The notes below the pieces were generated by a model that worked only from the letters and a program-made list of their open reading frames with translations, was not told the DNA's origin and ran no database searches. The position numbers were made by a program, and so were the translations under genes. Below, piece by piece: positions 17,457 through 43,636 of a stretch of DNA of 64,000 nt (its first letter is position 1; each line of letters starts with the position of its first letter). The stretch is from Flavobacterium xinjiangense (lineage in GTDB: Bacteria > Bacteroidota > Bacteroidia > Flavobacteriales > Flavobacteriaceae): NCBI RefSeq assembly GCF_900142885.1, contig NZ_FRCL01000010.1, forward strand, positions 62,001-126,000, in the 5' to 3' direction.

Positions 17457-17521
17457 TGTGAATTTTACAATTTTTTTTTTTAGTTCTATAAGTTAAATTA
17501 GGAATAATAACATCATTTTTA
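17457..17521 (+). promoter_or_regulatory. stress-regulon promoter upstream of the AraC-type regulator
   Basis: TGTGAATTTTACAA at 17457-17470, GTTCTATAA at 17483-17491, and a -7-like ATTTTTA with the last four bases TTTA at 17518-17521. The box spacing (21 bp) and box-to--7 spacing are identical to eleven other sites in the window. The predicted transcription start is about 20 bp before the regulator's start codon, suggesting autoregulation. Confidence 0.75.
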
Positions 17522-17544
17522 CATAATCAATTAAAAAAAATAAT

Positions 17545-18129
17545 TTGAAACTATATATCAAATACATGGTTAGTAATCGCTGTAAAATGGCGGTAAAAGA
17601 GGAATTGAAAAAACTTGGGCTACATTTCATTGTTGTTGATTTAGGTGAAGTTGAAATCATGGAAAATATTTCTATGAGTCAACGGGAGCAATTAAAAAAA
17701 GTTCTTTTAGATTCAGGACTTGAATTGATGGATGATAAAAAGTCTATGTTGATTGAAAAAATAAAAAATGTGATTATCGAAATGGTACATCATTCTACTG
17801 AAAATATCAAAGTGAATTTTTCTGATTATTTAAGTGAAAAAATGAATCATGATTACACTTATTTATCTAATTTATTTTCAGAAGTTCAAGGAACTACTAT
17901 TGAACAATTTATAATTTCACATAAAACAGAAAGAATAAAAGAATTGATTATTTACGGTGAATTGAATATTACCGAAATTGCCTGGAAAATGAACTACAGT
18001 AGTGTAGCACATTTATCGAGTCAGTTTAAAAAAGTCACTGGTCTCTCCCCTTCCCATTTTAAACAATTAAAAGACAAAAGACGAAATCCAATTGAAGAAA
18101 TTGGAACTTCACAAGAAACAAATAATTAA
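17545..18129 (+). CDS. AraC-family transcriptional regulator with HMA-like N-terminal domain
   Basis: 194 residues. The C-terminal 100 residues are an AraC/XylS double helix-turn-helix: DYTYLSNLFSEVQG, then ELNITEIAWKMNYSSVAHLSSQFKKVTGLSP, both recognition helices intact. Residues 1-60 (MKLYIKYMVSNRC) resemble a ferredoxin-like heavy-metal-associated fold; related proteins, from memory, have NMVCNRC, so the first Cys of the pair would be Ser here. Start is TTG. It opens the signalling block: the stop is one base before the next kinase ATG. It lacks a receiver domain, so how the kinases reach it is unclear. A candidate activator for the promoter family seen upstream of itself and the stress genes (inference). 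Confidence 0.85.
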   Translation: MKLYIKYMVSNRCKMAVKEELKKLGLHFIVVDLGEVEIMENISMSQREQLKKVLLDSGLELMDDKKSMLIEKIKNVIIEMVHHSTENIKVNFSDYLSEKMNHDYTYLSNLFSEVQGTTIEQFIISHKTERIKELIIYGELNITEIAWKMNYSSVAHLSSQFKKVTGLSPSHFKQLKDKRRNPIEEIGTSQETNN

Positions 18130-18130
18130 A

Positions 18131-21100
18131 ATGGAAACTTCAAGAACGCAGGATCCTCTATATACTCGTAGTTTAATTGAAGCCAGTTTAGACCCTTTTG
18201 TAACTATTAGTTTAGAAGGGAAAATTACTGACGTTAATGAGGCATCAATAAAAATTACTGGGATTTCGCGGGCAAAATTGATCGGTACTGACTTTTCAAA
18301 TTATTTTACGGAAAGAGAGAAAGCAAAAAAAGGATATGAACAAGTTTTTGAAAAAGGATTTGTTGCAGATTTTCCATTGACGATAAAACATAGTGATGGA
18401 AAATTAACAGATGTATTGTATAATGCTTCTGTTTATAAAGATGAAAATGGTGGTGTTTTGGGTGTTTTTGCAGCAGCAAGAGATGTAACCGCTCAAAAAT
18501 TATCATCTAAATATTCTCTAAGTTTAATTGAAGCAAGTTTAGATCCGTTGGTTACTATAAATATTGGCGGTAAAATCACTGATATGAATCAAGCTACAGT
18601 CAATATTACTGGAATAGAACGCAAAAAGTTAATTGGTTCAGATTTCTTTGATTATTTTACTGAACCTCAAAAAGCTCGTGAAGTATATCAAGAAGTTTTT
18701 GCTAAAGGTTCAGTTGCTGATTCTCCGCTTACACTTCGTCATAAAGACGGTAAGTTGACTGATGTATTATTCAATGGTTCCGTTTATAAAGATGACAGAG
18801 GGAATGTTTTAGGGGTTGTAATTGTCGCCAGAGATATTGCAGAGCAAAAATGGGCCACTGAATTACGTTCTGCCAACAAAGAATTGGCGTATCAAAATGA
18901 TGAAAAAGAAAAACGAGCTGAGGAATTGGTTATCGCAAATGAAGAATTAGCATATCAAAATAATGAAAAAGAAAAACGAGCAGACGAGTTAGGAATTGCT
19001 AATAAAGAGCTCGCATATCAGAATGACGAGAAAGAAAAAAGAGCCGCAGAGTTAGGAATTGCTAATAAAGAATTAGCATACCAAAATGATGAAAAAGAAA
19101 AACGTGCAGATGAGTTAGTTATTGCTAATAAAGAATTGGCATATCAAAATGATGAAAAAGAAAAACGTGCAGACGAGTTAGTTATTGCTAATAAAGAATT
19201 GGCGTATCAAAATGATGAAAAAGAAAAACGTGCTGATGAATTAGTTATTGCCAATAAAGAATTAGCGTATCAAAATGATGAAAAAGAAAAACGTGCAGAT
19301 GAATTAGTTATTGCCAATAAAGAATTGGCGTATCAAAATGACGAAAAAGAAAAACGTGCAGACGAATTGGTTATTGCCAATAAAGAGTTAGCATTTCAAA
19401 ATGACGAAAAAGAAAAACGTGCAGACGAATTGGCAATTGCCAATAAAGAGTTAGCATTTCAAAATAATGAAAAGGAAAAACGTGCAGACGAATTAATAAT
19501 TGCGAACAAAGAACTACGTTTTCAAAATGATGAAAAAGAAAAACGTGCAGCAGAATTACTGATTGCTAACAAAGAACTTATATTTCAGAATAAAGAAAAA
19601 GAAAAACGAAAAATTGAAAACAAAGAATTGGAAGATTTTAGCAATTCTTTAAAATTAGCTTCTCAATATTCTTTAAGTTTAATTGAAGCTAGCCGTGATC
19701 CTTTATTTACGATTAATCCAAAAGGTAAAATAACAGACACAAATGAGGCATCGGTAAGAGTTACAGGAATTTTACGTGAAAAATTAATCGGTTCTGATTT
19801 CTTTGATTATTTTACTGAACCACAAGAGGCCAGAAAGGCGTATCAGGAAGTCTTTGATAAAGATTTTATCGCAGATTATCCCTTAATTATAAAGGAGGAT
19901 CATAAATTAACTGATGTTTTGTTGAATGGTTCCGTTTATAAAAATGAGGAAGGAGAAGTACTAGGTGTTGTTGTGGTTGCAAGAGATATTACGGATCAAA
20001 AAAGAATTGAAAAAGAATCGATAGAAGCTAGGCTTTTTGCAGAATTAGCAACTGAAATTGCAGAAGACGCAAAACTTAATGCTGAAAAAGCTACAATTAT
20101 AGCGGAAGATGCCGTGAGAGCAAAACAACAGTTTTTGTCAAACATGAGTCATGAAATTCGTACACCAATGAATGCTATCATTGGATTTACGAAAGTGGTA
20201 TTAAAAACAGAATTATCTGCCAAACAAAAAGAATATTTAACAGCTATAAAAATGAGTGGCGATGCATTAATTGTACTCATAAATGACATACTTGATTTAG
20301 CAAAAGTAGATGCAGGTAAAATGGTGTTTGAAAAAACTCCCTTTAAAATGAAGGCTTCCATATCTTCAATGCTTCATTTATTTGAAACAAAAATCCAAGA
20401 AAGAAATTTAAAATTAATACAGGAATATGATAACAAAATACCTAATGTTTTGGTGGGAGATCCAGTTCGATTACACCAAATAATACTAAATCTTGTAAGT
20501 AATGCTGTAAAATTTACGAATAAAGGAAATATTACCGTAGGAGTTCATATGCTGCATGAAGATAATGAAAAAGTAATTATTGAATTTGCAGTCACCGATA
20601 CCGGAATTGGTATACCCAAAGCAAAAATAGATACCATATTCGAAAATTTTCAACAAGCAACTAGCGGTACTTCAAGATTATACGGAGGAACCGGACTAGG
20701 GCTTGCTATCGTGAAACAATTAGTTGAGCCACAAGGAGGTAAAATCCGAGTAAAAAGTATTGTTGATGTTGGAACTACGTTTAGTTTTACTTTAAGTTTT
20801 CAAAAAACAAATGCTGATGCTGTATTAGAAAACGAAATTTTAGAATTGGATACCGAAATAAAAGATATAAAAGTATTGGTAGTTGAAGATATTGCACTCA
20901 ATCAATTATTAATGAAAACGCTGTTGGATGATTTTGGATTCGATAGAGATATTGCTGAAAACGGTCAAATAGCAATTGAAAAGCTAAAAACTAAAAAGTA
21001 CGATATTATACTGATGGATTTACAAATGCCGGTTATGAACGGATTTGAAGCAACAGAATATATTCGTAATACAATGAATTCAAAAATTCCCATTATAGCT

Positions 21101-21649
21101 TTAACAGCTGATGTTACTACCGTAGATTTAGCTAAATGTAAAGCAGTAGGAATGAATGATTATATTGCAAAACCTGTTGACGAAAGAGTGTTGTACAGTA
21201 AAATAGTTGGAATACTAAAAAAACCAAAATTGGAGAAACTTAGTATAAAACTGAATGAAAATATTGGGATTAAAAATAGTTCGGAGAAAAAAATAAAATG
21301 TATTGACTTGGTTTATTTAAATCAACGAACAAAATCAAATCCAGCATTAATGATGGAGATGATTTCACTTTATTTAGAACAAACTCCTACCCTAATAAAC
21401 ACTATAAAGCAAAGTTTAGCTGACGAAGACTGGCTCTTATTAAGCTCAACTGTACATAAAATGATTCCTTCTTTTTCAATGATGGGAATACATCCTGATT
21501 TTGAAAATATGGCCAAAAAAATTCAGGAATATGCAAAAGCTCAAGAACAGAAAGACGGAATACACGACCTAGTCAATCAAATTGAAGATGTATGTTTGCA
21601 AGCCTGTTATGAATTACAAGAAGAATTTAACCTTATAAAAAATAATTAA
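18131..21649 (+). CDS. soluble hybrid histidine kinase, PAS-PAS-coil-PAS-HK-REC-Hpt
   Basis: 1172 residues from the ATG at 18131, which follows the regulator's stop by one base (the upstream in-frame start at 18092 would overlap it). No membrane segments. Order: two PAS domains (about 10-245), a long coiled coil of twelve 21-residue repeats (about 248-495), a third PAS (about 505-635), HisKA with phospho-acceptor His674 (SNMSHEIRTPMNA), HATPase with GTGLGLAIV, a receiver with Asp963 (LMDLQMP), and an Hpt domain with His1109 (HKMIPSF). A complete internal His-Asp-His relay whose next receiver could be the small protein encoded 2 bp downstream. Cytoplasmic sensing by PAS; ligand unknown. Confidence 0.92.
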   Translation: METSRTQDPLYTRSLIEASLDPFVTISLEGKITDVNEASIKITGISRAKLIGTDFSNYFTEREKAKKGYEQVFEKGFVADFPLTIKHSDGKLTDVLYNASVYKDENGGVLGVFAAARDVTAQKLSSKYSLSLIEASLDPLVTINIGGKITDMNQATVNITGIERKKLIGSDFFDYFTEPQKAREVYQEVFAKGSVADSPLTLRHKDGKLTDVLFNGSVYKDDRGNVLGVVIVARDIAEQKWATELRSANKELAYQNDEKEKRAEELVIANEELAYQNNEKEKRADELGIANKELAYQNDEKEKRAAELGIANKELAYQNDEKEKRADELVIANKELAYQNDEKEKRADELVIANKELAYQNDEKEKRADELVIANKELAYQNDEKEKRADELVIANKELAYQNDEKEKRADELVIANKELAFQNDEKEKRADELAIANKELAFQNNEKEKRADELIIANKELRFQNDEKEKRAAELLIANKELIFQNKEKEKRKIENKELEDFSNSLKLASQYSLSLIEASRDPLFTINPKGKITDTNEASVRVTGILREKLIGSDFFDYFTEPQEARKAYQEVFDKDFIADYPLIIKEDHKLTDVLLNGSVYKNEEGEVLGVVVVARDITDQKRIEKESIEARLFAELATEIAEDAKLNAEKATIIAEDAVRAKQQFLSNMSHEIRTPMNAIIGFTKVVLKTELSAKQKEYLTAIKMSGDALIVLINDILDLAKVDAGKMVFEKTPFKMKASISSMLHLFETKIQERNLKLIQEYDNKIPNVLVGDPVRLHQIILNLVSNAVKFTNKGNITVGVHMLHEDNEKVIIEFAVTDTGIGIPKAKIDTIFENFQQATSGTSRLYGGTGLGLAIVKQLVEPQGGKIRVKSIVDVGTTFSFTLSFQKTNADAVLENEILELDTEIKDIKVLVVEDIALNQLLMKTLLDDFGFDRDIAENGQIAIEKLKTKKYDIILMDLQMPVMNGFEATEYIRNTMNSKIPIIALTADVTTVDLAKCKAVGMNDYIAKPVDERVLYSKIVGILKKPKLEKLSIKLNENIGIKNSSEKKIKCIDLVYLNQRTKSNPALMMEMISLYLEQTPTLINTIKQSLADEDWLLLSSTVHKMIPSFSMMGIHPDFENMAKKIQEYAKAQEQKDGIHDLVNQIEDVCLQACYELQEEFNLIKNN
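18872..19612 (+). repeat. twelve 63-bp coding tandem repeats (coiled coil)
   Basis: Twelve units of 21 residues (consensus ANKELAYQNDEKEKRADELVI, with substitutions), three heptads each. Units 4-8 are identical in protein and nearly so in DNA, while outer units have diverged, a pattern typical of unequal crossing-over. The last unit is shortened. Confidence 0.9.
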
Positions 21650-21651
21650 CC

Positions 21652-22086
21652 GTGAAAAACGATACTAAAATAAAAATATTCTTAGTTGATGATGATGCAC
21701 TTTTCTTGAAGTCTTTGGAAATTGAATTTCTAGAAAATGCTGATTTTACTATTGAAACTTATCCTACTGGAGAATTGTGCGTTGCTAATTTATCTAATAC
21801 TCCTGATGTTGTAATATTAGACTACCAACTTGATGGTATTGTAGAAAATGCAATGAACGGATTAGAAACTTTGGACAAAATAAAAGGTTTTAATCCAAAT
21901 ATTCCAGTTGTCATGTTATCATCTCAAGATAAAATTGAGGTAGCCATAAACTGTATGCACCACAAGGCATTTGATTATGTTGTGAAAAGTGAAACTGCCT
22001 TTGTACGTTTGCAAAAGATTATTACTACCATTTTTAAATATCAAAAAATGGAAAAAGAATTAAGCTGGTATATGGACCGAATGTAA
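21652..22086 (+). CDS. single-domain response regulator (receiver)
   Basis: 144 residues, one CheY-like receiver. The acidic pair is in FLVDDDALF, the phospho-acceptor Asp in VVILDYQLDG, the Ser switch position in VVMLSSQD, and the Lys in DYVVKSE. There is no output domain. GTG start 2 bp after the upstream kinase stop, so translational coupling is likely. It probably accepts phosphoryl groups from the Hpt of that kinase, or carries them to CheR/CheB-type effectors that follow. Confidence 0.88.
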   Translation: MKNDTKIKIFLVDDDALFLKSLEIEFLENADFTIETYPTGELCVANLSNTPDVVILDYQLDGIVENAMNGLETLDKIKGFNPNIPVVMLSSQDKIEVAINCMHHKAFDYVVKSETAFVRLQKIITTIFKYQKMEKELSWYMDRM

Positions 22087-22180: not shown

Positions 22181-23005
22181 ATGCAGTATAAAGACACATC
22201 AGATCTAGAAATTTCATTGCTATTAGAAGCGATTTATAGAAAACATGGTTATGATTTCAGACAGTATTCTCAAGCTCATATCCGCCGAAGAATAATGAAC
22301 AGAATGGCCATTTCAGGATTCGCCGATGTTTCTCAAATGCAATCTAAAGTTTTGAATGACGAAGAATTTGCTTCAGAACTCCTGCAGGATTTATCAATAA
22401 CGGTAACCGAAATGTTTCGTGACCCAACTTTTTATCAGTCATTAAGAGAAAAGGTCATCCCTATTTTAAAAACGTATCCCTTTATAAAAATATGGCATGC
22501 TGGCTGTGCTACAGGCGAAGAAGCGTATTCAATGGCGATTCTTTTGCAGGAAGAAGGCTTGTATGACAGAACTACAATTTATGCCACTGACTTTAACCAG
22601 TTGGCATTGAACCGTGCAAAAGAAGGTATTTTTTCGAACAAAATGATAAAAGAATACACTGTAAATTATCAACTGTCCGGAGGAAAAGAATCTTTTTCAA
22701 GTTATTATACTTCGAGTTATGATAATGTGATTATGAACCAATCTTTGAAAAAAAATATTGTTTGGGCCAATCATAATTTAGTAACAGATAGTGTATTTGC
22801 TGAAGTTAACTTGATATTATGTCGAAATGTACTTATATATTTTGATAAAAATTTGCAAAACAGCGTGCAAACTCTTTTTTACAATAGCCTCATTAATGGA
22901 GGCGTTTTATGTTTAGGATCTAAAGAAAGTTTGCGATATTCCGATTTATATTCGGAGTATCAAGAGATGGATAATAAACAAAGAATATTTAAAAAGAAAT
23001 ATTAA
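22181..23005 (+). CDS. CheR-type methyltransferase
   Basis: 274-residue S-adenosylmethionine-dependent methyltransferase of the CheR type, which methylates Glu residues of chemoreceptors in motile bacteria. It has the N-terminal helical domain (HIRRRIMNRM), the SAM-binding WHAGCATGEEAYSMAILL and the LCRNVLIYF motif. No methyl-accepting receptor is encoded in the window, so the target may be a sensor kinase, as suggested for CheB/CheR genes linked to hybrid kinases. It abuts the cheB-like gene: TAA and ATG are adjacent. Confidence 0.9.
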   Translation: MQYKDTSDLEISLLLEAIYRKHGYDFRQYSQAHIRRRIMNRMAISGFADVSQMQSKVLNDEEFASELLQDLSITVTEMFRDPTFYQSLREKVIPILKTYPFIKIWHAGCATGEEAYSMAILLQEEGLYDRTTIYATDFNQLALNRAKEGIFSNKMIKEYTVNYQLSGGKESFSSYYTSSYDNVIMNQSLKKNIVWANHNLVTDSVFAEVNLILCRNVLIYFDKNLQNSVQTLFYNSLINGGVLCLGSKESLRYSDLYSEYQEMDNKQRIFKKKY

Positions 23006-23566
23006 ATGCGTTATGAAGCAATTGTTATAGGAGTTTCGTCTGGAGGCATGAATGTTTTAAAAATAATATCCGCGGCCTTACCGACTGATTTCAAAATACC
23101 AATTATTGTAGTTCAACATGTAGGGGCACATTCCGATAGCCAATGGATACAGCTTTTAAATGAAAAAAGTAATCTTCATGTTAAGGAAGCTGATGAAAAA
23201 GAAAAAATAGAAAACGGAAAAATTTACTTTGCCCCGCCTAATTATCATTTACTAATTGAAAAAGATAAAACTTTTTCACTCACAATAGACGAGCGCGTAA
23301 ATTTTGCAAGGCCAGCAATTGATGTATTGTTTGAGTCAGCTGCTGAAGCTTACAGGAATAAATTAATAGGAATTGTGCTTACAGGCTCAAATAATGATGG
23401 GACTAAAGGTATAAAACGAATAAAAGAATGTGGCGGTCTGACGATTATTCAAGACCCAAAAACAGCTGAATCTCCTTATATGCCCATGTCAGTGCTTACA
23501 GCTATTGAACCTGATCATATTTTATCAATAGAGAACATAATCGCATTTTTGATAAAACTTAAATAG
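23006..23566 (+). CDS. CheB-type methylesterase, catalytic domain only
   Basis: 186 residues corresponding to the C-terminal catalytic domain of CheB, without the receiver domain. The expected catalytic triad is visible: Ser11 (IGVSSGG), His38 (VVQHVG) and Asp131 (GSNNDGTKG). It would reverse the methylation (or deamidate) targets of the CheR encoded immediately upstream. Lacking the receiver, it would not be controlled by phosphorylation in cis; the free receiver encoded two genes upstream could act in trans (inference). Confidence 0.9.
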   Translation: MRYEAIVIGVSSGGMNVLKIISAALPTDFKIPIIVVQHVGAHSDSQWIQLLNEKSNLHVKEADEKEKIENGKIYFAPPNYHLLIEKDKTFSLTIDERVNFARPAIDVLFESAAEAYRNKLIGIVLTGSNNDGTKGIKRIKECGGLTIIQDPKTAESPYMPMSVLTAIEPDHILSIENIIAFLIKLK

Positions 23567-23606: not shown

Positions 23607-26600
23607 ATGAAAATGACCCTTGGCAGAAAAATAGTAATAGGATTTAGTGCTTGTGCCGTTGTCCTTTTAGCAGTTGCAATTTTCTCTTTTAAAAATAGTG
23701 AAAAATTTGTCGCTTCAAATGCTTTGGTTAATCATTCCAACGAGGTGTTATCTCAATTTGATCAGATACTAATATCTTCCATCGATGCAGAGACTGGTAT
23801 ACGTGGTTATGTAATTACGGGCGAAGAAAATTACCTGAAACCATTTTTATCTTCCAAAACAAAAATAATAGAGCAACTTGCTAAAGTAAAGGAATTGACA
23901 AAAGACAATCCCAATCAACAAAAAAATATTGAAGAACTTTCGGAACAGCTCAAAATTCGTTTTGAAAATCTAAATAAAGCTTTAGACTTTCGTAAAAAAG
24001 ATTTTAAAAAAGCTCAAGAATTTATTGCTTCTGGCGAGGGGAAACAGTTGCAAGATGAAATAAGAAAAACAATTACTAAAACGCAGGAAACAGAACATAC
24101 TTTACTAAATGAAAGAATGCAAACAAGCGAAAATGATGCCGGCAAGTTTAATATTGTTTTTGCTTTTTTATTGTTAATCATTATTCTAATTCTTCTCGTA
24201 GTTTACACAATAGTCACTGAAAATTTGAAAGCACTGAAAAGCTCCGAATCAGAAACTGCCAATAAAAACTGGTTGCTAACGGGTAACTCAGAACTCAACG
24301 AAAAATTAATAGGAAACCAAAGTATAGCCCAGTTAGCAAACAATACGATTAGTTTTTTATGTACTTACCTGAAGGCTAATATAGGAGCTGTGTATCTCTT
24401 TGATGAAAATGACAATACGCTGATTCTAAATGGGAGATTTGCTTTTTCATCTTCAAAAGAAGGTAAGGAAATATTTAAAATAAATGAGGGGTTAATTGGT
24501 CAAGCCGCCTGGGAACAGAAACAAATTGCTATAACAGATGTATCCGAAGATCAAATACGCATCACATCAACCGTTTTGGATGCAAAACCTAAAAATTTAC
24601 TTATCACCCCTTTTCTGCTTGACGGAAAAACGATAGGAGTAATCGAAATAGGAAAACTTACTGATTTTAACGAAACCGAAAAGGAATTCATCAATGTCTC
24701 AATGAACAGTATTGCCATAAGTGTCAATACGGTACAACAAGTCGAAGAAAAAGAAAAAAGAGCCGCCGAATTAAGCATTGCCAACAAAGAACTTGCCTAT
24801 CAAAATGAGGAGAAAGAAAAAAGAGCTGCCGAATTAGGAATTGCAAACAAGGAACTTGCCTATCAAAATGATGAAAAGGAAAAAAGAGCTGCCGAATTAG
24901 GAATTGCCAACAAGGAACTCGCCTATCAAAATGATGAAAAGGAAAAAAGAGCTGCCGAATTAGGAATTGCCAACAAAGAACTCGCCTTTCAAAATGATGA
25001 AAAAGAAAAAAGGGCTGCCGAATTAGGAATTGCAAACAAGGAACTTGCCTTTCAAAATGAAGAAAAAGAAAAAAGGGCTGCCGAATTAGGAATTGCAAAC
25101 AAGGAACTTGCCTTTCAAAACGATGAAAAAGAAAAAAGAGCAGTAGAGTTGAGTTTTGCAAATAAAGAGCTTTCGATTCAAGCAGAAGAACTTCAAATGC
25201 AACAGGAAGAACTCAGACAATTGAATGAAGAACTGGAACAACAAGCACAAAATCTAAAACAACAACAAGAGGAACTGCAAATGACCAATGAAGAATTGGA
25301 AGAGCAGACCCAATCATTGGAAGAGAAAAATAAAGAAGTCGAAGCTTCAAAAAACAGTATAGAATTAAAAACAAAACAACTGGAGATAAGCAGTAAGTAT
25401 AAATCTGAATTCCTTGCAAACATGTCACATGAATTGAGAACCCCGCTGAACAGCTTGTTGATACTGTCAAAAGATCTATCAGAAAACAGAAAGAAAAATC
25501 TGGACGAAGTGCAGGTTGAAAGTGCAGAAATAATTTATAAAAGTGGACATGACTTACTGGTATTAATAAACGAAGTACTGGACCTTTCTAAAATTGAAGC
25601 AGGTAAAATGTCTATCAACATTGAAAAAGTATCCTTAAAAAATTTCACGGATGATTTAATTCGTGATTTTAGACATCAGGCAGAACAGAAAGGATTAAAA
25701 CTAGTTTGTAAATTGAGTACTGATTTACCAGAATATATACATACTGATTTACAACGATTGAATCAGATATTAAAAAATCTTATATCAAATGCCATAAAAT
25801 TCACCGAAAAAGGAAGTGTAACTTTATCTATTGACCCAAATACGGCAACTACATTGAACATTTCAATTACCGATACCGGAATTGGAATATCCGAAGACAA
25901 ACAAACGGCTATTTTTGAAGCTTTTCAACAAGCCGAAGGTGGTACTTCAAGAAAATATGGAGGAACGGGTCTAGGACTTTCTATTTCTCGAGAACTCGCA
26001 AAATTATTAGAAGCAGAAATTCAATTGAAAAGCAAACCTAACCATGGATCTACTTTTTCGCTTATTATTCCTTTGCAAATTCATCCTCAAGAAGAGACCT
26101 TCAACCCTATTCCGGTGCAACCTGTTTCCTATACGCCTCAAGTTATAAAGGAATCAATGTATCTTAATTATGACACCATAAAAGATGATAGAGATACGAT
26201 AAGTAAGGATGATAAAGTAGTACTGATTATTGAGGATGATCGGAATTTTGCCGCTATACTTTTAAACCAAGCACACAAAAAAGGATTCAAATGCTTGTCG
26301 GCAGCAACAGGAGAAGATGGACTATTACTTACTTCAAAATACAAACCAAACGCCATTATTCTAGATATGGGTCTACCTGGCATCAAAGGGCGACAAGTAT
26401 TACACGAACTAAAAGCAAATCCCGCCATAAGACACATACCAGTACATATCATTTCAGCAAATGACCGCACACTAGAACCAATCAGAGAAGGTGCTGTGGA
26501 GTATTTGATGAAACCAATCGCTAAAAATGAACTAGAAGAAGCTTTCAACCGAATTGAGAATTTTGTAAACAGAAAGATTAAAAACCTGATGATTATTGAA

Positions 26601-27383
26601 GACAATGAAAATTCCAGAAAAGCAATAAAAATACTCATTGGTAATGGCGATGTGAAATGTTTGGAAGCAGGAAGCGGTAAAGAAGCTTTGGAACTATATG
26701 AACAAAATAACATCGATTGCATCATTTTGGACATTGGTTTACCAGACATAAGTGGCTTTGAGCTCATCCATAAATTGGAAGAGATCAAAGGACATAACAT
26801 GCCTCCTATTATTATTTACACCGGAAAAGAACTAACAAAAGAAGAAAACAATCTGCTTCAAAAATATGCAGAAAGCATTATTATTAAAGGAATAAAATCA
26901 GAAGAACGATTACTGGACGAAACCGCGCTATTTCTGCATCGTACAATTAGTAATTTACCAAAATCGAAACAAATAATCATAAATAATTTGTACGATAAAG
27001 AAGCTATATTCCATTCTAAAAAAATACTTTTAGTAGATGATGATATGCGAAATGTTTTTGCATTATCCAAAATACTTCAAGAACGCGGGATGGACGTTAT
27101 AAAAGCCGAAAATGGAAAAACAGCATTAGATATGCTGGAAAAAAACCCTGATATTGATTTAGTTCTAATGGATATAATGATGCCCGAAATGGACGGTTAT
27201 GAAGCCATGAAAAGAATACGTGCCCAGATAAAATTCAGGAGTTTACCGGTTATTGCCCTCACTGCAAAAGCTATGAAAGATGATAAACAAAAATGTATAG
27301 ACGCTGGTGCAAATGATTACATTACTAAGCCAATTGATGTAGAACGTTTGTTATCATTGATGCGCGTATGGTTAAGTAAATAA
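23607..27383 (+). CDS. membrane hybrid histidine kinase, CHASE3-GAF-coil-HK-REC-REC-REC
   Basis: 1258 residues. Transmembrane helix about 8-27, CHASE3 periplasmic sensor (about 38-180, with ETGIRGYVITG), second helix about 186-208, GAF domain (about 240-375), six 21-residue coil repeats plus a Gln/Glu-rich coil (375-595), HisKA with His608 (ANMSHELRTPLNS), HATPase with GTGLGLSIS, and three receivers whose phospho-acceptor Asp are at 920, 1042 and 1189. The last receiver is the most canonical (LLVDDDMRN, MMPEMDG). No Hpt domain, unlike the neighbouring kinases. Envelope or redox input through CHASE3 and GAF is plausible but unproved. Confidence 0.92.
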   Translation: MKMTLGRKIVIGFSACAVVLLAVAIFSFKNSEKFVASNALVNHSNEVLSQFDQILISSIDAETGIRGYVITGEENYLKPFLSSKTKIIEQLAKVKELTKDNPNQQKNIEELSEQLKIRFENLNKALDFRKKDFKKAQEFIASGEGKQLQDEIRKTITKTQETEHTLLNERMQTSENDAGKFNIVFAFLLLIIILILLVVYTIVTENLKALKSSESETANKNWLLTGNSELNEKLIGNQSIAQLANNTISFLCTYLKANIGAVYLFDENDNTLILNGRFAFSSSKEGKEIFKINEGLIGQAAWEQKQIAITDVSEDQIRITSTVLDAKPKNLLITPFLLDGKTIGVIEIGKLTDFNETEKEFINVSMNSIAISVNTVQQVEEKEKRAAELSIANKELAYQNEEKEKRAAELGIANKELAYQNDEKEKRAAELGIANKELAYQNDEKEKRAAELGIANKELAFQNDEKEKRAAELGIANKELAFQNEEKEKRAAELGIANKELAFQNDEKEKRAVELSFANKELSIQAEELQMQQEELRQLNEELEQQAQNLKQQQEELQMTNEELEEQTQSLEEKNKEVEASKNSIELKTKQLEISSKYKSEFLANMSHELRTPLNSLLILSKDLSENRKKNLDEVQVESAEIIYKSGHDLLVLINEVLDLSKIEAGKMSINIEKVSLKNFTDDLIRDFRHQAEQKGLKLVCKLSTDLPEYIHTDLQRLNQILKNLISNAIKFTEKGSVTLSIDPNTATTLNISITDTGIGISEDKQTAIFEAFQQAEGGTSRKYGGTGLGLSISRELAKLLEAEIQLKSKPNHGSTFSLIIPLQIHPQEETFNPIPVQPVSYTPQVIKESMYLNYDTIKDDRDTISKDDKVVLIIEDDRNFAAILLNQAHKKGFKCLSAATGEDGLLLTSKYKPNAIILDMGLPGIKGRQVLHELKANPAIRHIPVHIISANDRTLEPIREGAVEYLMKPIAKNELEEAFNRIENFVNRKIKNLMIIEDNENSRKAIKILIGNGDVKCLEAGSGKEALELYEQNNIDCIILDIGLPDISGFELIHKLEEIKGHNMPPIIIYTGKELTKEENNLLQKYAESIIIKGIKSEERLLDETALFLHRTISNLPKSKQIIINNLYDKEAIFHSKKILLVDDDMRNVFALSKILQERGMDVIKAENGKTALDMLEKNPDIDLVLMDIMMPEMDGYEAMKRIRAQIKFRSLPVIALTAKAMKDDKQKCIDAGANDYITKPIDVERLLSLMRVWLSK
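24780..25157 (+). repeat. six 63-bp coding tandem repeats (coiled coil)
   Basis: Six 21-residue units (ANKELAYQNDEKEKRAAELGI type) followed by a partial seventh that runs into an unrelated Gln/Glu-rich coil. The same unit recurs in the kinase at 18.1 kb and the DHp-only protein at 52.1 kb. Confidence 0.9.
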
Positions 27384-27450
27384 TGGAATGCCATGATAAA
27401 GTTGGCAACTCCCCTATTCCTTAAGTTAAACTTTTATTTTACAATTGAAA

Positions 27451-29874
27451 ATGAAAATAAATAGCCCTGTTAAAATTTTATTGGTAGACGATCTACCTGA
27501 AAATTTGTTTGCCTTAGAAGTAATTCTCTCTACTGAGGATTATATATGCGTAAAAGCAACTTCCGGTAATGATGCCTTAAAAATTCTTCTCCACGAACAA
27601 GATTTTGCCATCATATTAATAGATGTCCAAATGCCGTTGATGGACGGATTTGAAACTGTAGAACTAATTCGCCAAATCGAAACACTAAAACATGTTCCGA
27701 TAATTTTTTTAACGGCAAGTATGGACAATACAGTCCAAATTTTCAAAGGCTACCAAGCAGGTGCCGTTGATTATATGATTAAACCGCTTTCCCCTGAAAT
27801 ATTAAAGGCAAAAGTGGCGGTTTTTGTCGATTTATATAAGAAAAACCAGGAATTACTAGCGCAGGCAGAAGAGCTAAAAAAACTAAACAACGAACTTACA
27901 GCTCAAAAATTACTTTCCGAATATTCACTAAGTCTTATTGAAGCAAGTCATGATCCTTTGTTTGCTATTAGTCCTGAAGGAAAAATAACCGATATGAATA
28001 ATGCATCGGTGCAAGTAACAGGAATACAAAGGGAAAAATTGATCGGAACCGATTTTTTTGATTATTTCACTGAGCCTCAAAAGGCTAGAGAAGTGTACCA
28101 GAAAGTATTCAAAAAAGGATTTGTTGCTGACTCTCCACTTATTCTTCGCCATAAAAATGGCAAGCTGACAGACGTATTATTTAACGGATCAGTATACAAA
28201 GATGAGAAAGGAAATGTGCTTGGAGTAGTAATTGTTGCCAGGGATGTTACTGATCAAAAAAGAATTGAAACCGAGCTGATTGAAGCTAAAGTATTTGCGG
28301 AGTTGGCCACCTTAATTGCAGAGGAAGCAAAAAGTAAAGCAGAAGACGCAATGAAAGCCAAACAGCAATTTTTGTCTAATATGAGTCACGAAATCCGTAC
28401 CCCTATGAATGCGATTATCGGATTTACAAAAGTGCTGATTAAAACCCATTTGACGGAAAAACAGAATGAATATTTTAATGCTATTAAAGTCTCGGGAGAT
28501 GCCTTAATAGTACTAATTGACGACATCCTTGATTTAGCAAAAGTAGATTCAGGAAAGATGACATATGAGCAAACACCTTTCAAAATAGCGACCTCCCTTT
28601 CAGCTATGCTTCATTTGTTTGAAACAAAAATTCACGAAAAAAACCTGCAATTAATTAAAAATTACGACAGTAAAATTCCTGAGGTTTTGGTTGGAGATCC
28701 AGTTCGTTTGCACCAAATTATTTTAAATTTAGTCAGTAATGCTTTAAAGTTTACCACAAAAGGAGAGATTACTGTTGGTGTTGAATTGGTACATGAAGAT
28801 AATGAAACAGTCATTATCCGATTTGCAGTTACAGATACCGGAATAGGTATTGCTGCAGAAAAGATGCCCACAGTTTTTGAAAATTTCCAACAGGCTACCA
28901 GTGGAACCTCAAGATTGTATGGTGGAACTGGTTTAGGATTAGCCATAGTAAAACAATTAGTAGAAACACAAGGAGGCAGCATACAAGTAGAAAGTAAAAT
29001 TGACCAAGGTTCAACATTCAGTTTCACACTCCCTTTCCGAAAAACAAAAGCGAAAGCAAAATCACAAACAGTTGCAACACAATTAAATTCGGAAATTAAA
29101 AATATAAAAGTATTGGTAGTGGAAGATATTGCACTTAACCAGTTACTGATGAAAACCCTACTGGATGATTTTGGATTTGAACGGGATATTGCCGAAAACG
29201 GAAAAATAGCTATCGAATTGTTTCAGGAGAATTCGTATGATATTATTTTGATGGATTTGCAAATGCCAGTAATGAATGGATTTGAAGCCACGGATTATAT
29301 CCGTAATACCCTGAAATCAAAAATTCCCATCATTGCATTGACTGCTGATGTAACAACAATTGATCTAGCTAAATGCAAAGCAGTCGGGATGGACGATTAT
29401 ATTTCGAAGCCAGTCGACGAAAAGATATTATACAGCAAGATCGTGGGCTTAGTAAAGAAACCTAATCTCGAAAAAACCGAAGAGTTTATTGCCATTGAAA
29501 ATAGTCAACGTAAAAAAACAAAATGTATTGATTTGACGTATTTGAACAACCGTACCAAGTCAAATCCTGCATTAATGATGGAAATGATCACGTTATATTT
29601 AACACATACCCCTCCTTTAATTACTACCTTAAAACAGAGTTTAGAAGACAAAAACTGGACTTTATTAGCCGCTGCTGCACATAAAATAATTCCTTCTTTT
29701 GCTATAATGGGTATCAGTGCAAATTTTGAAAGTATGGCTAAAAAAATTCAGGAACTTGCTGATAAAGAAGAAAACACAACTGAATTAATCGATTTAATTA
29801 GTCAACTTGAAGCTATTTGTGCTCAGGCTTGTGAAGAATTAGAAGAAGAATTTGCCAACATAAAAAGTAAATAA
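27451..29874 (+). CDS. hybrid histidine kinase, REC-PAS-HK-REC-Hpt
   Basis: 807 residues from the ATG at 27451 (an in-frame TTG lies two codons upstream). An N-terminal receiver has acceptor Asp58 (LIDVQMPLMDG) and is followed by a short coil, a PAS domain (about 150-270), HisKA with His313, HATPase with GTGLGLAIV, a second receiver with Asp602 and an Hpt domain with His744. Input is therefore another phosphorylation event plus PAS. From the PAS onward it is closely similar to the kinases at 18.1 and 30.1 kb, indicating module duplication. It probably receives phosphoryl groups from an upstream kinase and passes them on. Confidence 0.92.
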   Translation: MKINSPVKILLVDDLPENLFALEVILSTEDYICVKATSGNDALKILLHEQDFAIILIDVQMPLMDGFETVELIRQIETLKHVPIIFLTASMDNTVQIFKGYQAGAVDYMIKPLSPEILKAKVAVFVDLYKKNQELLAQAEELKKLNNELTAQKLLSEYSLSLIEASHDPLFAISPEGKITDMNNASVQVTGIQREKLIGTDFFDYFTEPQKAREVYQKVFKKGFVADSPLILRHKNGKLTDVLFNGSVYKDEKGNVLGVVIVARDVTDQKRIETELIEAKVFAELATLIAEEAKSKAEDAMKAKQQFLSNMSHEIRTPMNAIIGFTKVLIKTHLTEKQNEYFNAIKVSGDALIVLIDDILDLAKVDSGKMTYEQTPFKIATSLSAMLHLFETKIHEKNLQLIKNYDSKIPEVLVGDPVRLHQIILNLVSNALKFTTKGEITVGVELVHEDNETVIIRFAVTDTGIGIAAEKMPTVFENFQQATSGTSRLYGGTGLGLAIVKQLVETQGGSIQVESKIDQGSTFSFTLPFRKTKAKAKSQTVATQLNSEIKNIKVLVVEDIALNQLLMKTLLDDFGFERDIAENGKIAIELFQENSYDIILMDLQMPVMNGFEATDYIRNTLKSKIPIIALTADVTTIDLAKCKAVGMDDYISKPVDEKILYSKIVGLVKKPNLEKTEEFIAIENSQRKKTKCIDLTYLNNRTKSNPALMMEMITLYLTHTPPLITTLKQSLEDKNWTLLAAAAHKIIPSFAIMGISANFESMAKKIQELADKEENTTELIDLISQLEAICAQACEELEEEFANIKSK

Positions 29875-30060: not shown

Positions 30061-33000
30061 ATGGTATCTATTCCTAAATCTGATATTTCGGTAGCTAATA
30101 AAGAGATTAAAAAAAAATCCTTTACAGTAGTTGCTATTGGTGCATCGGCCGGAGGACTAGAAGCGTTTAGCCTTTTATTAAAAAAATTACCCGCTAATAC
30201 TGGTATGGCATATATCTATGCCCAACACCTAAGTCCAGACCATAAAAGTTTACTCACTTCCATTTTATCTAAGATTACAGAAATGAAAGTACAGGAAATT
30301 GATAACATGGAAAAAATGGAACCTAATAATGTCTATGTTATCCCTCCCAATAAAGTAATTGAAGTAATTAACGGACATATTCGATTGCTACCCCGCATTA
30401 AAAAAAATATACCTAATCTTACCATTGATCTTCTTTTTTCCTCACTTGCTGAAACACATAAAGAAAATGTAATTGGCGTTGTGCTTTCCGGTTATGCCAG
30501 TGACGGTATGATGGGGCTCAAAGCAATTAAAGATGCTGGAGGAATCACCTTTGCTCAGGATGATACGGCCCAAGCCGATAGTATGCCTAAATCTGCTATT
30601 TCTTCGGGAGTAGTCGATTATATTTTATCGCCGTCGGAGATTGCCGAGGAATTAGTTCGCCTCAGTAAAATGGGAATTTCTAATAAGAGCATTCCTGAAA
30701 AACAAGTAAAGGAAAAAGAATTAACTCTTGAAAATAACAATTACGATATAAATACGATTTTTGAGCTTTTACTGAAGACAACAGGGGTGGATTTCAGTCA
30801 CTATAAAATGCCCACCATTAAGAGAAGAATAAACCATAAAATGCATCAATATGGCATAAAAACCATTAAAGAATACGCTAAACTTTTACTAAATAACAAT
30901 ATCGAGATCGAGGTATTGTACAAAGATCTACTGATTAATGTGACTAGTTTTTTTAGAGAAAAAGATACTTTCCAATATTTAAAAACGACTCTTCTTCCCA
31001 AACTTCTCAAAAGCAAGGAAGCTGAAGAAACATTACGGATATGGATTCCAGCTTGTTCTACAGGTCAGGAAGCGTATTCAATCGCAATGATAATAACCGA
31101 ATTACAAAATAAAACCAATAATATACCCGTTCAAATTTTTGCCACAGATCTCAGCGAGGATGCCATTCGACAAGCCCGTATTGGCGAATATTCACAAAAT
31201 GACTTGAAGAATATTTCAAAAAAATATTTAGACCATTATTTTATAAAAATTGGCGACAATTATCGCATTATCAAAGAACTTCGTGATATATGTGTTTTTG
31301 CACCTCATAATATTTTACGAGATCCTCCATTTTCGCGGATGGATTTTGTCAGTTGTTGTAATCTTCTTATCTATTTTGATTCTTCAGCGCAAAAAAAAGT
31401 CTTTTCTTCCCTTCATTTTGCTTTGAATGATAATGGATATCTAATGCTTGGTAAAGCTGAAAGTACCGGTACATCATCACCTCTTTTTACATTACTGAAT
31501 AATAAGTATAAAATCTATTCCCGAAAAAACAATATGGGAGTTCGAAAAATACTTGAACTAACACCACGCTTTACGCGTATAAATATGTCTAGCAAAAAAG
31601 TAACCACATCCTCAAAAAGTATTAGTTTAACCCCCGTAGGAATAGAGAATGTTATCGATACTGTTCTTCTGGCAAATTATATGCCTGCATGCGCAGTTGT
31701 CAATAAAGACATGGAAATTTTGCAATTTAGGGGACCTGTTAGCACTTACCTAGAACATTCATCTGGTAAAGCAAGTCTTAATATTTTGAAGATGGCGCGT
31801 CCTGAATTTGCTTTTGAACTGCGCAACGCAATCAATAAAGCTATTGAATCAAAGGAATCAGTACACAAATCGGGAATAGAAATAAAAATTGATTCGGTTT
31901 TACGAATGATGTCTTTTGAAGTCAGACCACTAAAATTTGAATGGGATGAACCTTTATTACTAATCGTTTTCAAACCGCAAGAGGCTGTTGCAAAACTAAA
32001 TGAAAATGATTCCGACGGTAGTTACAATTCAACCCAAAAAGATTTAAAAATAAAAAAACTCACGGAGGAATTAAATAAAACACGTTCAGAAATGGTTTCT
32101 ATCATTGAATCGCAGGAAACGATTTATGAAGAATTACAAGCAGCTAATGAAGAGATTGTTTCGTCAAATGAAGAATTTCAAACGTTGAATGAAGAACTTG
32201 AGACCTCAAAAGAGGAAATTGAAGCTACTAATGAAGAGCTTATCAGTACGAACCAGGAATTACAGATGCGACATGATCTTTTGATCGAATCGCATGAATT
32301 TTCGGAGGCTATTATTGCTACGATTCATGAGCCAATGCTTATTCTGAATAAAGATTTTATTGTTTCATCGGCAAATAAATCTTTTTATAAAAAGTTTCTC
32401 GTAGATAAAGCATCAACAGAAGGAAAACTATTATTTGATTTGGGGAATAAGCAGTGGAATATTCAAAAATTACGTTTAATGCTTAACGATGTTATTTCAA
32501 AAAATAATGGTTTCGAAAATTTTGAAGTAACGCATACTTTTTCAGGAATCGGCGAAAAAATAATGCTGCTAAATGCCCATCTTATAGTTCAGAAAACGAA
32601 TAGCGAACAGCTAATTCTTCTCGCTTTTGAAGATATAACGGATCGTTCTCGCTATTATCTAAAAGAAAAATATTCTTTAAGTCTAATCGAAGCCAGCCTT
32701 GATCCTTTAGTAACCATCAATACGGAAGGTAAGATTACTGACATGAATCAGGCAACTGTAAAGATAACAGGGTTGTCACGCGCTAAATTGAAAGACTCAA
32801 ACTTCTTTGATCATTTCACCGAACCGCAAAAAGCTCGTGAAGTTTATCAACAAGTATTTTCAAAAGGTTCTGTAACTGACTCTCCGCTAATACTTCGCAA
32901 TAAAAATGGAAAACTTACTGATGTATTATTCAATGGTTCGGTTTATAAAGATGATAGCGGAACCGTATTAGGAGTGGTAATAGTTGCAAGGGATGTTACT

Positions 33001-34656
33001 GAACAAAAAAGAATCGAAAAAGAAGCACTTGAAGCAAGAGTTTTTGCGGAACTTGCGACTGAAATAGCGGAAGAAGCAAAAATTAAAGCAGAAGAAGCCA
33101 CGCGATTCGCTGAAGAAGCTATGAAAGCGAAACAGCAATTTCTGTCTAACATGAGCCATGAAATTCGAACACCAATGAATGCAATTATTGGTTTTACGAA
33201 AGTTGTTTTGAAAACGGAGCTATCTGAAAAACAAAAAGAATATTTAAATGCCATAAAAATTAGTGGAGACTCCTTAATTGTACTCATAGATGATATTCTC
33301 GATTTAGCAAAGGTAGACGCAGGTAAAATGATCTTTGAGAAAAAGCCATTTAAAATAAAATCTGCAATAAAAGCAATGTTGCATATCTTTGAGACAAAAA
33401 TTCAAGAGCAAAATCTAGAATTAATTACGCTATTTGATACAACTATACCTAATATTGTAGTGGGAGATCCGGTTCGTTTGCATCAGATTATCTTAAATTT
33501 AGTAAGTAATGCTGTTAAATTCACCAATAAGGGCTCAATTACAGTAGGCGTCCATCTTTTGCATGAAGACACTGAAAAAGTAATCCTTGAATTTGAAGTT
33601 ACGGATACCGGAATTGGTATTTCTAAAGAAAAAATACCTCGGATATTTGAAAATTTTCAACAAGCTTCTAGCGGAACTTCCAGATTGTATGGCGGAACCG
33701 GGCTAGGACTTGCAATTGTAAAAAAATTAGTTGAAGCACAGGGTGGAACAATACGAGTAAAAAGCAAATTTAACTCAGGGTCAACATTTAGTTTTACATT
33801 AAGCTTTAAGAAATCAAATGAAAAACATATTTCTGAATCTTCATTAATTGAATTTGACACAAAAATAAAAAACATAAAAGTTTTAGTTGTGGAAGATATT
33901 GCCCTTAATCAATTGTTAATGAAAACACTGTTAGATGATTTTGGTTTTTATCACGAAGTAGCAGAAAATGGGAAAATAGCCATCGAAAAGCTGCAAAAAA
34001 ATCATTATGATATAATCCTAATGGATTTACAAATGCCAGAAATGAATGGCTTTGAAGCTACAGACTATATTCGTAAAACAATGAATTCCAATATTCCTAT
34101 CATAGCATTGACAGCAGATGTAACAACTGTAGATCTTATAAAATGTAAAGCGGTGGGAATTAATGAGTATATCGCTAAACCTATCGATGAAAGAGTATTA
34201 TACAGCAAAATAATCGAAGTTTTGAAAATAAATGGTGTAATACAAGTGGGTAATCAGTTCAATGATGATCACGAGAGTAAAATCCCTAAACATAAGAATA
34301 CAAAATGTATTGATTTAACCTATCTAAAAGAACGAACAAAATCGAATCCTGTATTGATGTCTGAAATGTTAACAATCTATTTAAACCAAACTCCTTCTTT
34401 AATTGTCGCATTAAAAAAAGGTTTAGCAGAAAAAAATTGGCAAACAATAGCCACTTCTGCACATAAAATGATACCCTCTTTTTCAATAATGGGAATTGAT
34501 ACCTTATATGAAAATATGGCTAGAAAAATTCAGGAGTTTGCAGAAAAAAAAGAATATACTTCTGAATTAATTGACTTATTTTCTCAACTTGAGCGCATTT
34601 GTAGTCAGGCTTGTACAGAAATACAAGCAGAACTAGACACCATGAAAAACGATTAA
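30061..34656 (+). CDS. CheB-CheR-PAS-PAS hybrid histidine kinase fusion
   Basis: 1531-residue multidomain protein. CheB methylesterase-like (about 18-205; Ser29 of IGASAGG, QHLSPDHKS, GYASDGMMG), CheR methyltransferase (about 230-495; ACSTGQEAYSIAM, CCNLLIYF), a PAS-like linker, a Glu-rich coil (about 675-745), two PAS domains (about 745-1000), HisKA with His1033, HATPase (GTGLGLAIV), receiver with Asp1322 and Hpt with His1468. Such CheB/CheR-PAS kinases are known in many non-flagellate bacteria, with unknown methylation targets. It repeats, in one chain, the functions of the separate cheR, cheB and kinase genes upstream. Confidence 0.93.
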   Translation: MVSIPKSDISVANKEIKKKSFTVVAIGASAGGLEAFSLLLKKLPANTGMAYIYAQHLSPDHKSLLTSILSKITEMKVQEIDNMEKMEPNNVYVIPPNKVIEVINGHIRLLPRIKKNIPNLTIDLLFSSLAETHKENVIGVVLSGYASDGMMGLKAIKDAGGITFAQDDTAQADSMPKSAISSGVVDYILSPSEIAEELVRLSKMGISNKSIPEKQVKEKELTLENNNYDINTIFELLLKTTGVDFSHYKMPTIKRRINHKMHQYGIKTIKEYAKLLLNNNIEIEVLYKDLLINVTSFFREKDTFQYLKTTLLPKLLKSKEAEETLRIWIPACSTGQEAYSIAMIITELQNKTNNIPVQIFATDLSEDAIRQARIGEYSQNDLKNISKKYLDHYFIKIGDNYRIIKELRDICVFAPHNILRDPPFSRMDFVSCCNLLIYFDSSAQKKVFSSLHFALNDNGYLMLGKAESTGTSSPLFTLLNNKYKIYSRKNNMGVRKILELTPRFTRINMSSKKVTTSSKSISLTPVGIENVIDTVLLANYMPACAVVNKDMEILQFRGPVSTYLEHSSGKASLNILKMARPEFAFELRNAINKAIESKESVHKSGIEIKIDSVLRMMSFEVRPLKFEWDEPLLLIVFKPQEAVAKLNENDSDGSYNSTQKDLKIKKLTEELNKTRSEMVSIIESQETIYEELQAANEEIVSSNEEFQTLNEELETSKEEIEATNEELISTNQELQMRHDLLIESHEFSEAIIATIHEPMLILNKDFIVSSANKSFYKKFLVDKASTEGKLLFDLGNKQWNIQKLRLMLNDVISKNNGFENFEVTHTFSGIGEKIMLLNAHLIVQKTNSEQLILLAFEDITDRSRYYLKEKYSLSLIEASLDPLVTINTEGKITDMNQATVKITGLSRAKLKDSNFFDHFTEPQKAREVYQQVFSKGSVTDSPLILRNKNGKLTDVLFNGSVYKDDSGTVLGVVIVARDVTEQKRIEKEALEARVFAELATEIAEEAKIKAEEATRFAEEAMKAKQQFLSNMSHEIRTPMNAIIGFTKVVLKTELSEKQKEYLNAIKISGDSLIVLIDDILDLAKVDAGKMIFEKKPFKIKSAIKAMLHIFETKIQEQNLELITLFDTTIPNIVVGDPVRLHQIILNLVSNAVKFTNKGSITVGVHLLHEDTEKVILEFEVTDTGIGISKEKIPRIFENFQQASSGTSRLYGGTGLGLAIVKKLVEAQGGTIRVKSKFNSGSTFSFTLSFKKSNEKHISESSLIEFDTKIKNIKVLVVEDIALNQLLMKTLLDDFGFYHEVAENGKIAIEKLQKNHYDIILMDLQMPEMNGFEATDYIRKTMNSNIPIIALTADVTTVDLIKCKAVGINEYIAKPIDERVLYSKIIEVLKINGVIQVGNQFNDDHESKIPKHKNTKCIDLTYLKERTKSNPVLMSEMLTIYLNQTPSLIVALKKGLAEKNWQTIATSAHKMIPSFSIMGIDTLYENMARKIQEFAEKKEYTSELIDLFSQLERICSQACTEIQAELDTMKND

Positions 34657-34763: not shown

Positions 34764-34828
34764 GTTGAATACTACAACATTAAACTGATATCTTATAACT
34801 TCTTTGGGTAGCAAACCGTTCACCTTTG
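34764..34828 (+). promoter_or_regulatory. stress-regulon promoter of the first ice-binding gene
   Basis: GTTGAATACTACAA at 34764-34777, ATCTTATAA at 34790-34798, and ACCTTTG at 34822-34828. Spacing is identical to the other sites; box 1 deviates at two bases and box 2 at one. About 38 bp before the ATG. Confidence 0.75.
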
Positions 34829-35926: not shown

Positions 35927-35991
35927 TGTAAATATTGAAAAAATTTTTAATAATTGTATAAAAACAATACTGTAGATTTTATTGAACTTTG
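35927..35991 (+). promoter_or_regulatory. stress-regulon promoter of the DUF2383 gene
   Basis: TGTAAATATTGAAA at 35927-35940 (the weakest first box), ATTGTATAA at 35953-35961, and GAACTTTG ending at 35991. Fixed spacing retained. The start codon lies 38 bp beyond. Confidence 0.65.
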
Positions 35992-36591: not shown

Positions 36592-36656
36592 TGTGAATGA
36601 TGTAAGTTTTATTGACAATTATATAACAATATATAAACTCTATAAAAATACATTTG
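36592..36656 (+). promoter_or_regulatory. stress-regulon promoter of a two-helix membrane protein
   Basis: TGTGAATGATGTAA at 36592-36605, ATTATATAA at 36618-36626, TACATTTG at 36649-36656, the last being a full TAnnTTTG -7 element. The first ATG of the gene is about 120 bp further, so the leader is long. Confidence 0.8.
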
Positions 36657-37165: not shown

Positions 37166-37230
37166 TGTGAATAATACAACTCTTACCTTTAATTTTATAA
37201 CAGTGTTTTATTATACTATTCCTAACTTGG
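37166..37230 (+). promoter_or_regulatory. stress-regulon promoter of the acidic protein/D-LDH pair
   Basis: TGTGAATAATACAA at 37166-37179, ATTTTATAA at 37192-37200, TAACTTGG at 37223-37230 (one base off TAnnTTTG). Boxes match consensus fully. Start codon 21 bp beyond. Confidence 0.78.
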
Positions 37231-38906: not shown

Positions 38907-38971
38907 TGTGAAAGTTGTAACTCATATATAAAATTGTATAAAGCATTAAAGCACATTAAACCTGAAATTTA
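38907..38971 (+). promoter_or_regulatory. stress-regulon promoter of the DUF892-Dps operon
   Basis: TGTGAAAGTTGTAA at 38907-38920, ATTGTATAA at 38933-38941, GAAATTTA ending at 38971. Spacing identical to the rest. The DUF892 start codon is 36 bp beyond. Confidence 0.72.
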
Positions 38972-42757: not shown

Positions 42758-42822
42758 TGTGAATTATATAAATCTATCGCAAAGTTATATAACATTTTTA
42801 ATCCACAAATAGCTGAACTTTA
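42758..42822 (+). promoter_or_regulatory. stress-regulon promoter of the baeRF-like gene
   Basis: TGTGAATTATATAA at 42758-42771, GTTATATAA at 42784-42792, GAACTTTA ending at 42822. Consensus boxes and exact spacing; about 70-bp leader follows. Confidence 0.8.
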
Positions 42823-43571: not shown

Positions 43572-43636
43572 TGTGAATAATACAACATTTAACAAAAGTT
43601 ATATAAAAAATTAAAATTAAATCTTACGGATATTTG
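43572..43636 (+). promoter_or_regulatory. stress-regulon promoter of the Mla operon
   Basis: TGTGAATAATACAA at 43572-43585, GTTATATAA at 43598-43606, GATATTTG ending at 43636. Both boxes match consensus. The first gene starts 145 bp beyond, leaving a long leader. Confidence 0.8.

Follow-up and report, generated by a model that had tools for sequence, protein, structure and literature searches.

The window analyzed here, a stretch of 64,000 nucleotides with 33% GC that forms part of a 3.9-Mb genome, carries on its + strand a gene for an AraC-type regulator of 194 amino acids with a TTG start (17545..18129). Its product combines a C-terminal HTH_18 domain with a copper-chaperone-like N-terminal domain in which SxxC replaces CxxC, and it matches both HTH_18 (PF12833, E 5.6e-16, 59 bits against a cut-off of 33.6) and HTH_AraC. 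The predicted structure (30-row alignment, mean pLDDT 84) comprises a beta-alpha-beta-beta-alpha N-terminal domain (residues 1-80, pLDDT about 90), followed by a double helix-turn-helix. When this model was searched with Foldseek, AraC-family DNA-binding domains took the top ranks (AraT, SoxS, MarA, and AraC among them), and the N-terminal part matched the copper chaperones Atx1, HAH1, and GolB with a probability of 0.97-1.00 but an E of 0.06-0.15. Together, the model and these matches place an HMA fold in the N-terminal domain. No Response_reg match was found in 17569-18129 at E <= 0.001, and the modeled N-terminal fold differs from that of a receiver. The best sequence match among solved chains was 12aw_A, a hybrid two-component system protein (E 1.5e-7). 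Residues S10 and C13 are invariant in 30/30 aligned rows, all of them close orthologues, so this group lacks an intact CxxC metal site.

For comparison, we used 80 orthologous loci from named genomes and MAGs, chosen for carrying the regulator and representing the best 80 of at least 534 matches. Among these best 80, the closest named-genome relatives of the regulator belong to Flavobacterium, and the loci range from Flavobacterium to Bacteroidales, Prolixibacteraceae, and one contig labelled Ignavibacteria. The latter (L096) carries a close orthologue outside Bacteroidota as labelled, by transfer or misbinning. Neighbor counts refer to 77 of the 80 loci, or to 74 where the next gene is concerned, after filtering for frames that start off the locus, proteins of less than 150 amino acids, and identical proteins. 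The aligned start codon is TTG in 59 of the 77 orthologues, and its conservation hints at deliberately weak translation.

Kinase partner and signaling block

A single base separates the stop codon of the regulator gene from the ATG of a gene for a hybrid histidine kinase (18131..21649, + strand), whose product has PAS repeats, HisKA, HATPase, and a receiver, with Hpt below its cut-off. Across the loci, the next open reading frame of at least 120 amino acids after the regulator is HK-like in 69/74, with a gap of at most 79 bp in 60 of these 69; two of the five other loci (L039, L049) have a receiver-like frame at this position. A kinase match on the regulator's strand is present in 76/77 loci, a count that may include other PAS kinases encoded nearby.

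The + strand continues with a single-domain receiver (21652..22086), which has a homologue in 62/77 loci, and with a CheR-type methyltransferase (22181..23005) and a CheB-type methylesterase (23006..23566), each with a homologue in 13/77 loci. These are followed by a CHASE3-GAF hybrid kinase with three receiver stretches (23607..27383), a receiver-PAS-kinase-receiver protein (27448..29874), and a CheB-CheR-PAS-kinase-receiver fusion (30061..34656), each without a DNA-binding domain match. The fusion lies close to the separate CheR and CheB genes. In a Pfam search of the block 17545-34656, which covered eight proteins, no DNA-binding domain besides that of the regulator was found at E <= 0.001. 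The sequence-only reading of this stretch had described the protein as the sole DNA-binding regulator of the signaling block and as coupled to a hybrid kinase gene, and both descriptions are upheld, by the Pfam search and by the gene spacing, respectively. The neighboring kinase and single-domain receiver might control the regulator through protein contact or solely through its amount; our preferred guess is contact with the receiver or Hpt output, combined with positive feedback on the amount of regulator.

Paired sites, their genes, and promoter geometry

Directly upstream of the regulator gene, a sequence match on the + strand predicts an AraC operator with a -7 box (17457..17521), which reads TGTGAATTTTACAA-n11-AGTTCTATAA-n22-CATTTTTA and begins 88 bp 5' of the TTG start. 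The -7 box of this site is poor, with 4/6 consensus letters, and the transcription start of the gene would lie near 17526, 19 bases 5' of the TTG start. Twelve such sites are found between 17457 and 53813, every one of them on the + strand, and they share, with single departures, the design TGTGAATnATRYAA, n11, ARTTnTRTAA, n22, and then a TAnnTTTG-like box; a weak site at 34764 departs more from it than the others. Since the core AATTATRTAA is common to both halves (ARTTATRTAA in the second), the sites form a direct repeat with a 21-bp period. The operator of CRP/FNR proteins is an inverted repeat, TGTGA-N6-TCACA; this candidate was rejected, as the consensus of the 176 sites described below is a direct repeat in which TGTGA has no inverted partner.

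To score the sites, we used a weight matrix trained on nine (later ten) other window sites, with the 17457 site held out. The held-out site reached 30.2 bits with nine training sites and 31.0 bits with ten. At 10 bits or more, the window holds 12 matches, throughout on the + strand; when the window was shuffled ten times with a first-order Markov model, a single match reached this level, at 10.4 bits. Taken by itself, the first half-site, searched as a 14-base pattern at 3 mismatches, gave 43 matches versus a shuffle mean of 32.2 (sd 6.1), which is not significant, as 6/100 shuffles reach 43. Likewise, the 35-base pattern at 3 mismatches gave mostly noise genome-wide (112 matches versus 89 for the reversed pattern). 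We therefore limited genome counts to at most one mismatch and locus counts to the weight matrix. At 0-1 mismatch, the 35-base pattern occurs at 14 places in the genome, 10 of which lie inside the window. Altogether, the paired site that had been noted directly 5' of the AraC-type gene stands well clear of the shuffles, and the half-site spacing of about 21 bp noted earlier recurs at the window sites. The earlier count of twelve promoters stands if the weak 34764 site (16.9 bits) is included; otherwise, there are eleven.

Beyond the regulator gene, the sites, all on the + strand, precede a set of genes downstream of the signaling block. The weak site (34764..34828) lies before an Ice_binding protein gene (34867), and it is followed by sites before a DUF2383 gene (35927..35991; gene at 36030), a gene for a small membrane-type protein, judged by eye (36592..36656; 36780), a gene for a small acidic protein with no Pfam family (37166..37230; 37251), and a DUF892 gene (38907..38971; 39008). 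Further sites stand before a hypothetical gene with no Pfam family (42758..42822; 42894), an operon labelled by eye as ABC-type lipid transporter-like (43572..43636; 43782), a DUF4382 gene (46994..47058; 47102), a CsbD-like gene (48792..48856; 48897), whose product matches at 39.1 bits, just under the cut-off of 40, an outer-membrane beta-barrel gene (49834..49898; 49933), and a Big_5/Ice_binding gene (53749..53813; 53848). Two Ice_binding (PF11999) proteins are encoded in this set (34867-35700 and 53848-55629). A ferritin-like (Dps-type) gene at 41822 lies in the cluster with no site directly before it, and a similar gene stands behind a site in 3 other loci. The protein encoded at 52132-53256 consists of many similar coiled-looking repeats and then a HisKA end, without an ATPase domain match.

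Outside the window, 7/15 loci examined combine both half-sites (at most 2 mismatches) with a -7 box matching in 5 or 6 letters; one of these loci encodes a small protein that resembles, by eye, those behind sites in L100 and G016. For sites of at least 24 bits, we sorted the first ATG open reading frame of at least 40 amino acids behind each site, which 6/176 sites lack, into single-linkage BLASTP groups. The largest group is the regulator's own (40/170 sites), a ranking that favors the regulator because the loci were picked for carrying it. The Big_5/Ice_binding group follows 21/170 sites and the CsbD-like group 15/170, each in 14/81 sources. Judged from these gene families, the regulon may have a stress role.

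The geometry of the promoters was examined in the same 176 sites of at least 24 bits, taken from the window and the 80 orthologous loci and picked by half-site score alone, with the -7 box left out of the score; their half-site letters lean to the window's type, the matrix being trained on the window. A -7 box with at least 5/6 letters lies at +22 from the second half-site in 127/176 sites and at +21 in 9/176, and any other spacing within 12 to 35 is found in at most 6/176. TTTG between -37 and -28 is present in only 3/176 sites, and 22/176 have a bare TTG from -35 to -26. These counts bear out the fixed phase and the absent -33 element that had been proposed from the window. A class II activator sits at about -65 to -56 and -44 to -35. 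In F. psychrophilum, the -7 box occupies -12 to -5 (PMC9723704), which puts the present half-sites at about these two positions.

That the upstream boxes keep a constant distance from the -7 box would also fit the promoter of an alternative sigma factor, in which case the motif would not be an operator. We consider this reading hardly credible. Downstream, the sites carry an ordinary sigma-A box of the TAnnTTTG kind, as the letter counts at +22 illustrate, and the upstream part covers two helical turns to about -69, past -35. In addition, the F. psychrophilum sigma motifs SM1-6 comprise, in the portion of that study drawn on here, sigma-A variants, sigma-54, a TAnnTTGY variant, and a CGT-box ECF type, with no such repeat described among them (PMC9723704). 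An alternative sigma promoter was accordingly rejected, the element being sigma-A-type rather than non-sigma-A.

Many regulators repress themselves; this one might bind its own promoter and repress it through negative feedback, or it might repress its targets. The layout makes this unlikely in our view, since the second half-site ends at about -35 and leaves the -7 box uncovered. Moreover, these promoters should be weak without help because TTTG at -33 is rare, and the same layout is found at the regulator's own promoter and at the target promoters.

Conservation of the sites and their co-occurrence with the regulator

A site of at least 14 bits lies within 400 bp 5' of the orthologous gene in 51/80 loci, and 44 of these 51 sites fall between -83 and -98. 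Overall, the matrix finds 229 matches across the 80 loci versus 1 in Markov shuffles (one per locus). No 14-bit site lies within this distance in the remaining 29/80 loci. Six of these (L075, L082, L086, L090, L094, and L099, four of them labelled Lutibacter) have a site about 950-1100 bp upstream instead, which suggests an operon with one gene ahead of the regulator. The site of L083 lies at -402, and some of the others seem, by eye, to have a changed half-site or a changed spacing.

We then compared the presence of the regulator with that of the motif, counted at no more than one mismatch, in 150 genomes of the genus and 296 of the phylum. The cut-off for orthologues was set by us at E <= 1e-70, and that for family members was E <= 1e-20. 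In the genus, the motif occurs in 37/43 genomes with an orthologue versus 44/107 without (p 5e-7), at least 5 sites per genome are found in 14/43 versus 3/107, and the reversed pattern is found in 0/150. In the phylum, the corresponding numbers are 13/20 with an orthologue versus 16/276 without (p 2e-10), and 26/141 with any family member versus 3/155 without (p 9e-7); the reversed pattern gave one match each in 3/296 genomes. All these p-values are overstated because the genomes and loci are related. At one mismatch, the motif was not found in 7/20 phylum genomes and 6/43 genus genomes that have the orthologue.

The genomes with a motif but no orthologue bear on the possibility that the sites are bound by an unlinked transcription factor, of which the AraC-type gene, a target judging by its position, would be no more than one target among others. 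Among the orthologue-less genomes of the genus, the sites in G021, G206, and G174:C13 lie beside paralogues, and those in G174:C4, G345, and G310 have no family member within 14 kb around them. Of the three family-less phylum genomes with a motif, two (G116, G275) look like chance, as the -7 box is absent. G192 (L177, L178) has two sites with 6/6 -7 letters, both at contig ends, and no regulator family member at E <= 1e-6. An 80% orthologue is present in its congener G442 together with seven sites, of which one precedes a CsbD-like gene (by eye) and closely resembles a G192 site; another congener, G441, has neither orthologue nor site. G016 and G011 have good sites, one each before a gene that resembles regulon members elsewhere (by eye), and regulator relatives at 37-38% identity only. 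When G192, G016, and G011 were searched with Pfam HTH_18 and the matches were compared with the regulator, no further close relative was found. These three genomes, with sites and no close orthologue nearby, favor an unlinked factor. Against it stand the phylum-wide co-occurrence of the motif with the family given above, the 21-bp half-site period, which suits the AraC family as known from the arabinose system, and the sites of paralogous AraC genes in a metal-type context (by eye), which have the same architecture and base differences that follow the protein clade. On balance, we judge an unlinked factor to be improbable.

The paralogues were compared using 136 family rows, which include the orthologues from related genomes and from which identical proteins were removed. 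A same-architecture site was defined by at most 3 mismatches over 19 fixed letters, with the fourth base left free, and none of 136 shuffled stretches came within 3 mismatches. Close orthologues have such a site in 55/84 cases, always upstream of the gene (55/55). In the metal-type CxxC clade, a variant site is present in 10/16 members, and it lies downstream of the gene in 10/10, over the stop codon in 6/10. The fourth base is A in 10/10 metal-clade sites and G in 51/55 orthologue sites. Between the clades, the first recognition helix differs (DYNS, DYNY, DYNT, DYST, and others versus DYTY), and the second differs much less.

The HMA-type AraC regulators with CxxC in Bacteroidota thus resemble the window protein in belonging to the same two-domain family, at 37-59% identity, and in the architecture of their sites. 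They differ in that their site comes after their own gene, whereas the site of the window protein comes before its gene; they have the first metal cysteine, where the window protein has S, and their half-site letters are different. The metal-type label of the neighboring genes was given by eye at two loci. At the first, a CxxC paralogue in the genome that holds the window (G000:C32:340750-341301; loci L193, L204) lies among metal-type small proteins, by eye, and has its own variant site over its stop codon. In G142, the gene next to the metal-type paralogue is an apparent heavy-metal ATPase, also by eye. A cysteine is present at the position of Cys13 in 135/136 family members. In a family tree of 80 rows, the metal clade forms one strongly supported side (16 rows), and the S and C forms are mixed on the other; because of this mixing, the cysteine may have been lost, or regained, on more than one occasion. 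The tree does not support assigning the SxxC form a single origin, as it requires five changes of the S label and has long branches that make parts of it unsure.

Autoregulation and regulon control by the AraC-type protein, as proposed in the sequence-only reading, are in our view well supported by this comparative evidence. The upstream site recurs in most orthologous loci, with sites of the same architecture beside paralogous AraC genes, and the motif tracks the orthologue in both genus and phylum; the activating sign is what we infer from the promoter layout. Likewise well supported, on sequence grounds, is the assignment of the regulator as a putative class II-type activator of the AraC family whose input domain and partner are unusual and which is found across the phylum.

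Proposed mechanism and relation to known systems

The sites, their phase, the rarity of the -33 element, the conservation, the co-occurrence, and the gene pairing are all read directly from the sequence: sites with a 21-bp period exist at a constant +22 phase and co-occur with the gene, and binding is what they predict. From them, we infer that the AraC-type protein is probably a self-activating class II activator of its own operon and of a regulon, a statement that takes in binding, activation, the stress role, and control by the kinase. Specifically, the protein would bind two 10-bp direct half-sites 21 bp, or two DNA turns, apart, with a sigma-A TAnnTTTG-type box placed 22 bp beyond the second half-site. 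The bound regulator would stand in for the missing -33 element and recruit the housekeeping sigma-A polymerase by class II activation. The 17457 site would drive the operon of regulator and hybrid kinase, and since one site would serve this shared operon, the regulator is proposed to activate its own synthesis together with that of the kinase. The other sites would drive the general-stress and envelope-type gene cluster, along with about seven promoters elsewhere in the genome.

This arrangement resembles that of the AraC/XylS class II activators, such as AraC at araI1-I2, SoxS, and MarA, in the double HTH and in direct half-sites 21 bp apart that end by the -35 region; in the arabinose system, AraC occupies such half-sites at araI1-I2. 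In contrast to AraC, which has a sugar-binding cupin, the window protein has a copper-chaperone-like N-terminal domain, and its system uses the Bacteroidota -7 box, usually without the -33 TTTG. The hybrid two-component systems of Bacteroides also pair a hybrid kinase with an AraC-type output. There, receiver and AraC domain are fused to the kinase, whereas in the window the kinase and the AraC protein are encoded by separate genes and the AraC protein lacks a receiver. The sigma-B, RpoS, and PhyR/EcfG stress responses share with the present system CsbD-like, DUF892-type, and ferritin-like (Dps-type) genes, with kinases nearby; those responses work through a sigma switch, and here an AraC-type activator would serve instead. 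In a search of open-access full texts, we found no account of the regulator, the site, or the regulon.

More tentatively, we suggest as a possible reading, about which we remain rather doubtful, that this system serves as the general stress response in a large part of Bacteroidota. It would descend from an AraC-type metal sensor that lost one metal cysteine, kept the other, and was taken over by a hybrid-kinase phosphorelay, becoming a self-amplifying master activator that does the job of sigma-B, RpoS, or EcfG. If the mechanism proposed above is right, the stress switch of Bacteroidota would be defined and its operator readable, so that regulons would be predictable from sequence across the phylum. 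In addition, the metal-type and stress-type regulators with their matched sites would provide a pair for learning how AraC-type specificity evolves.
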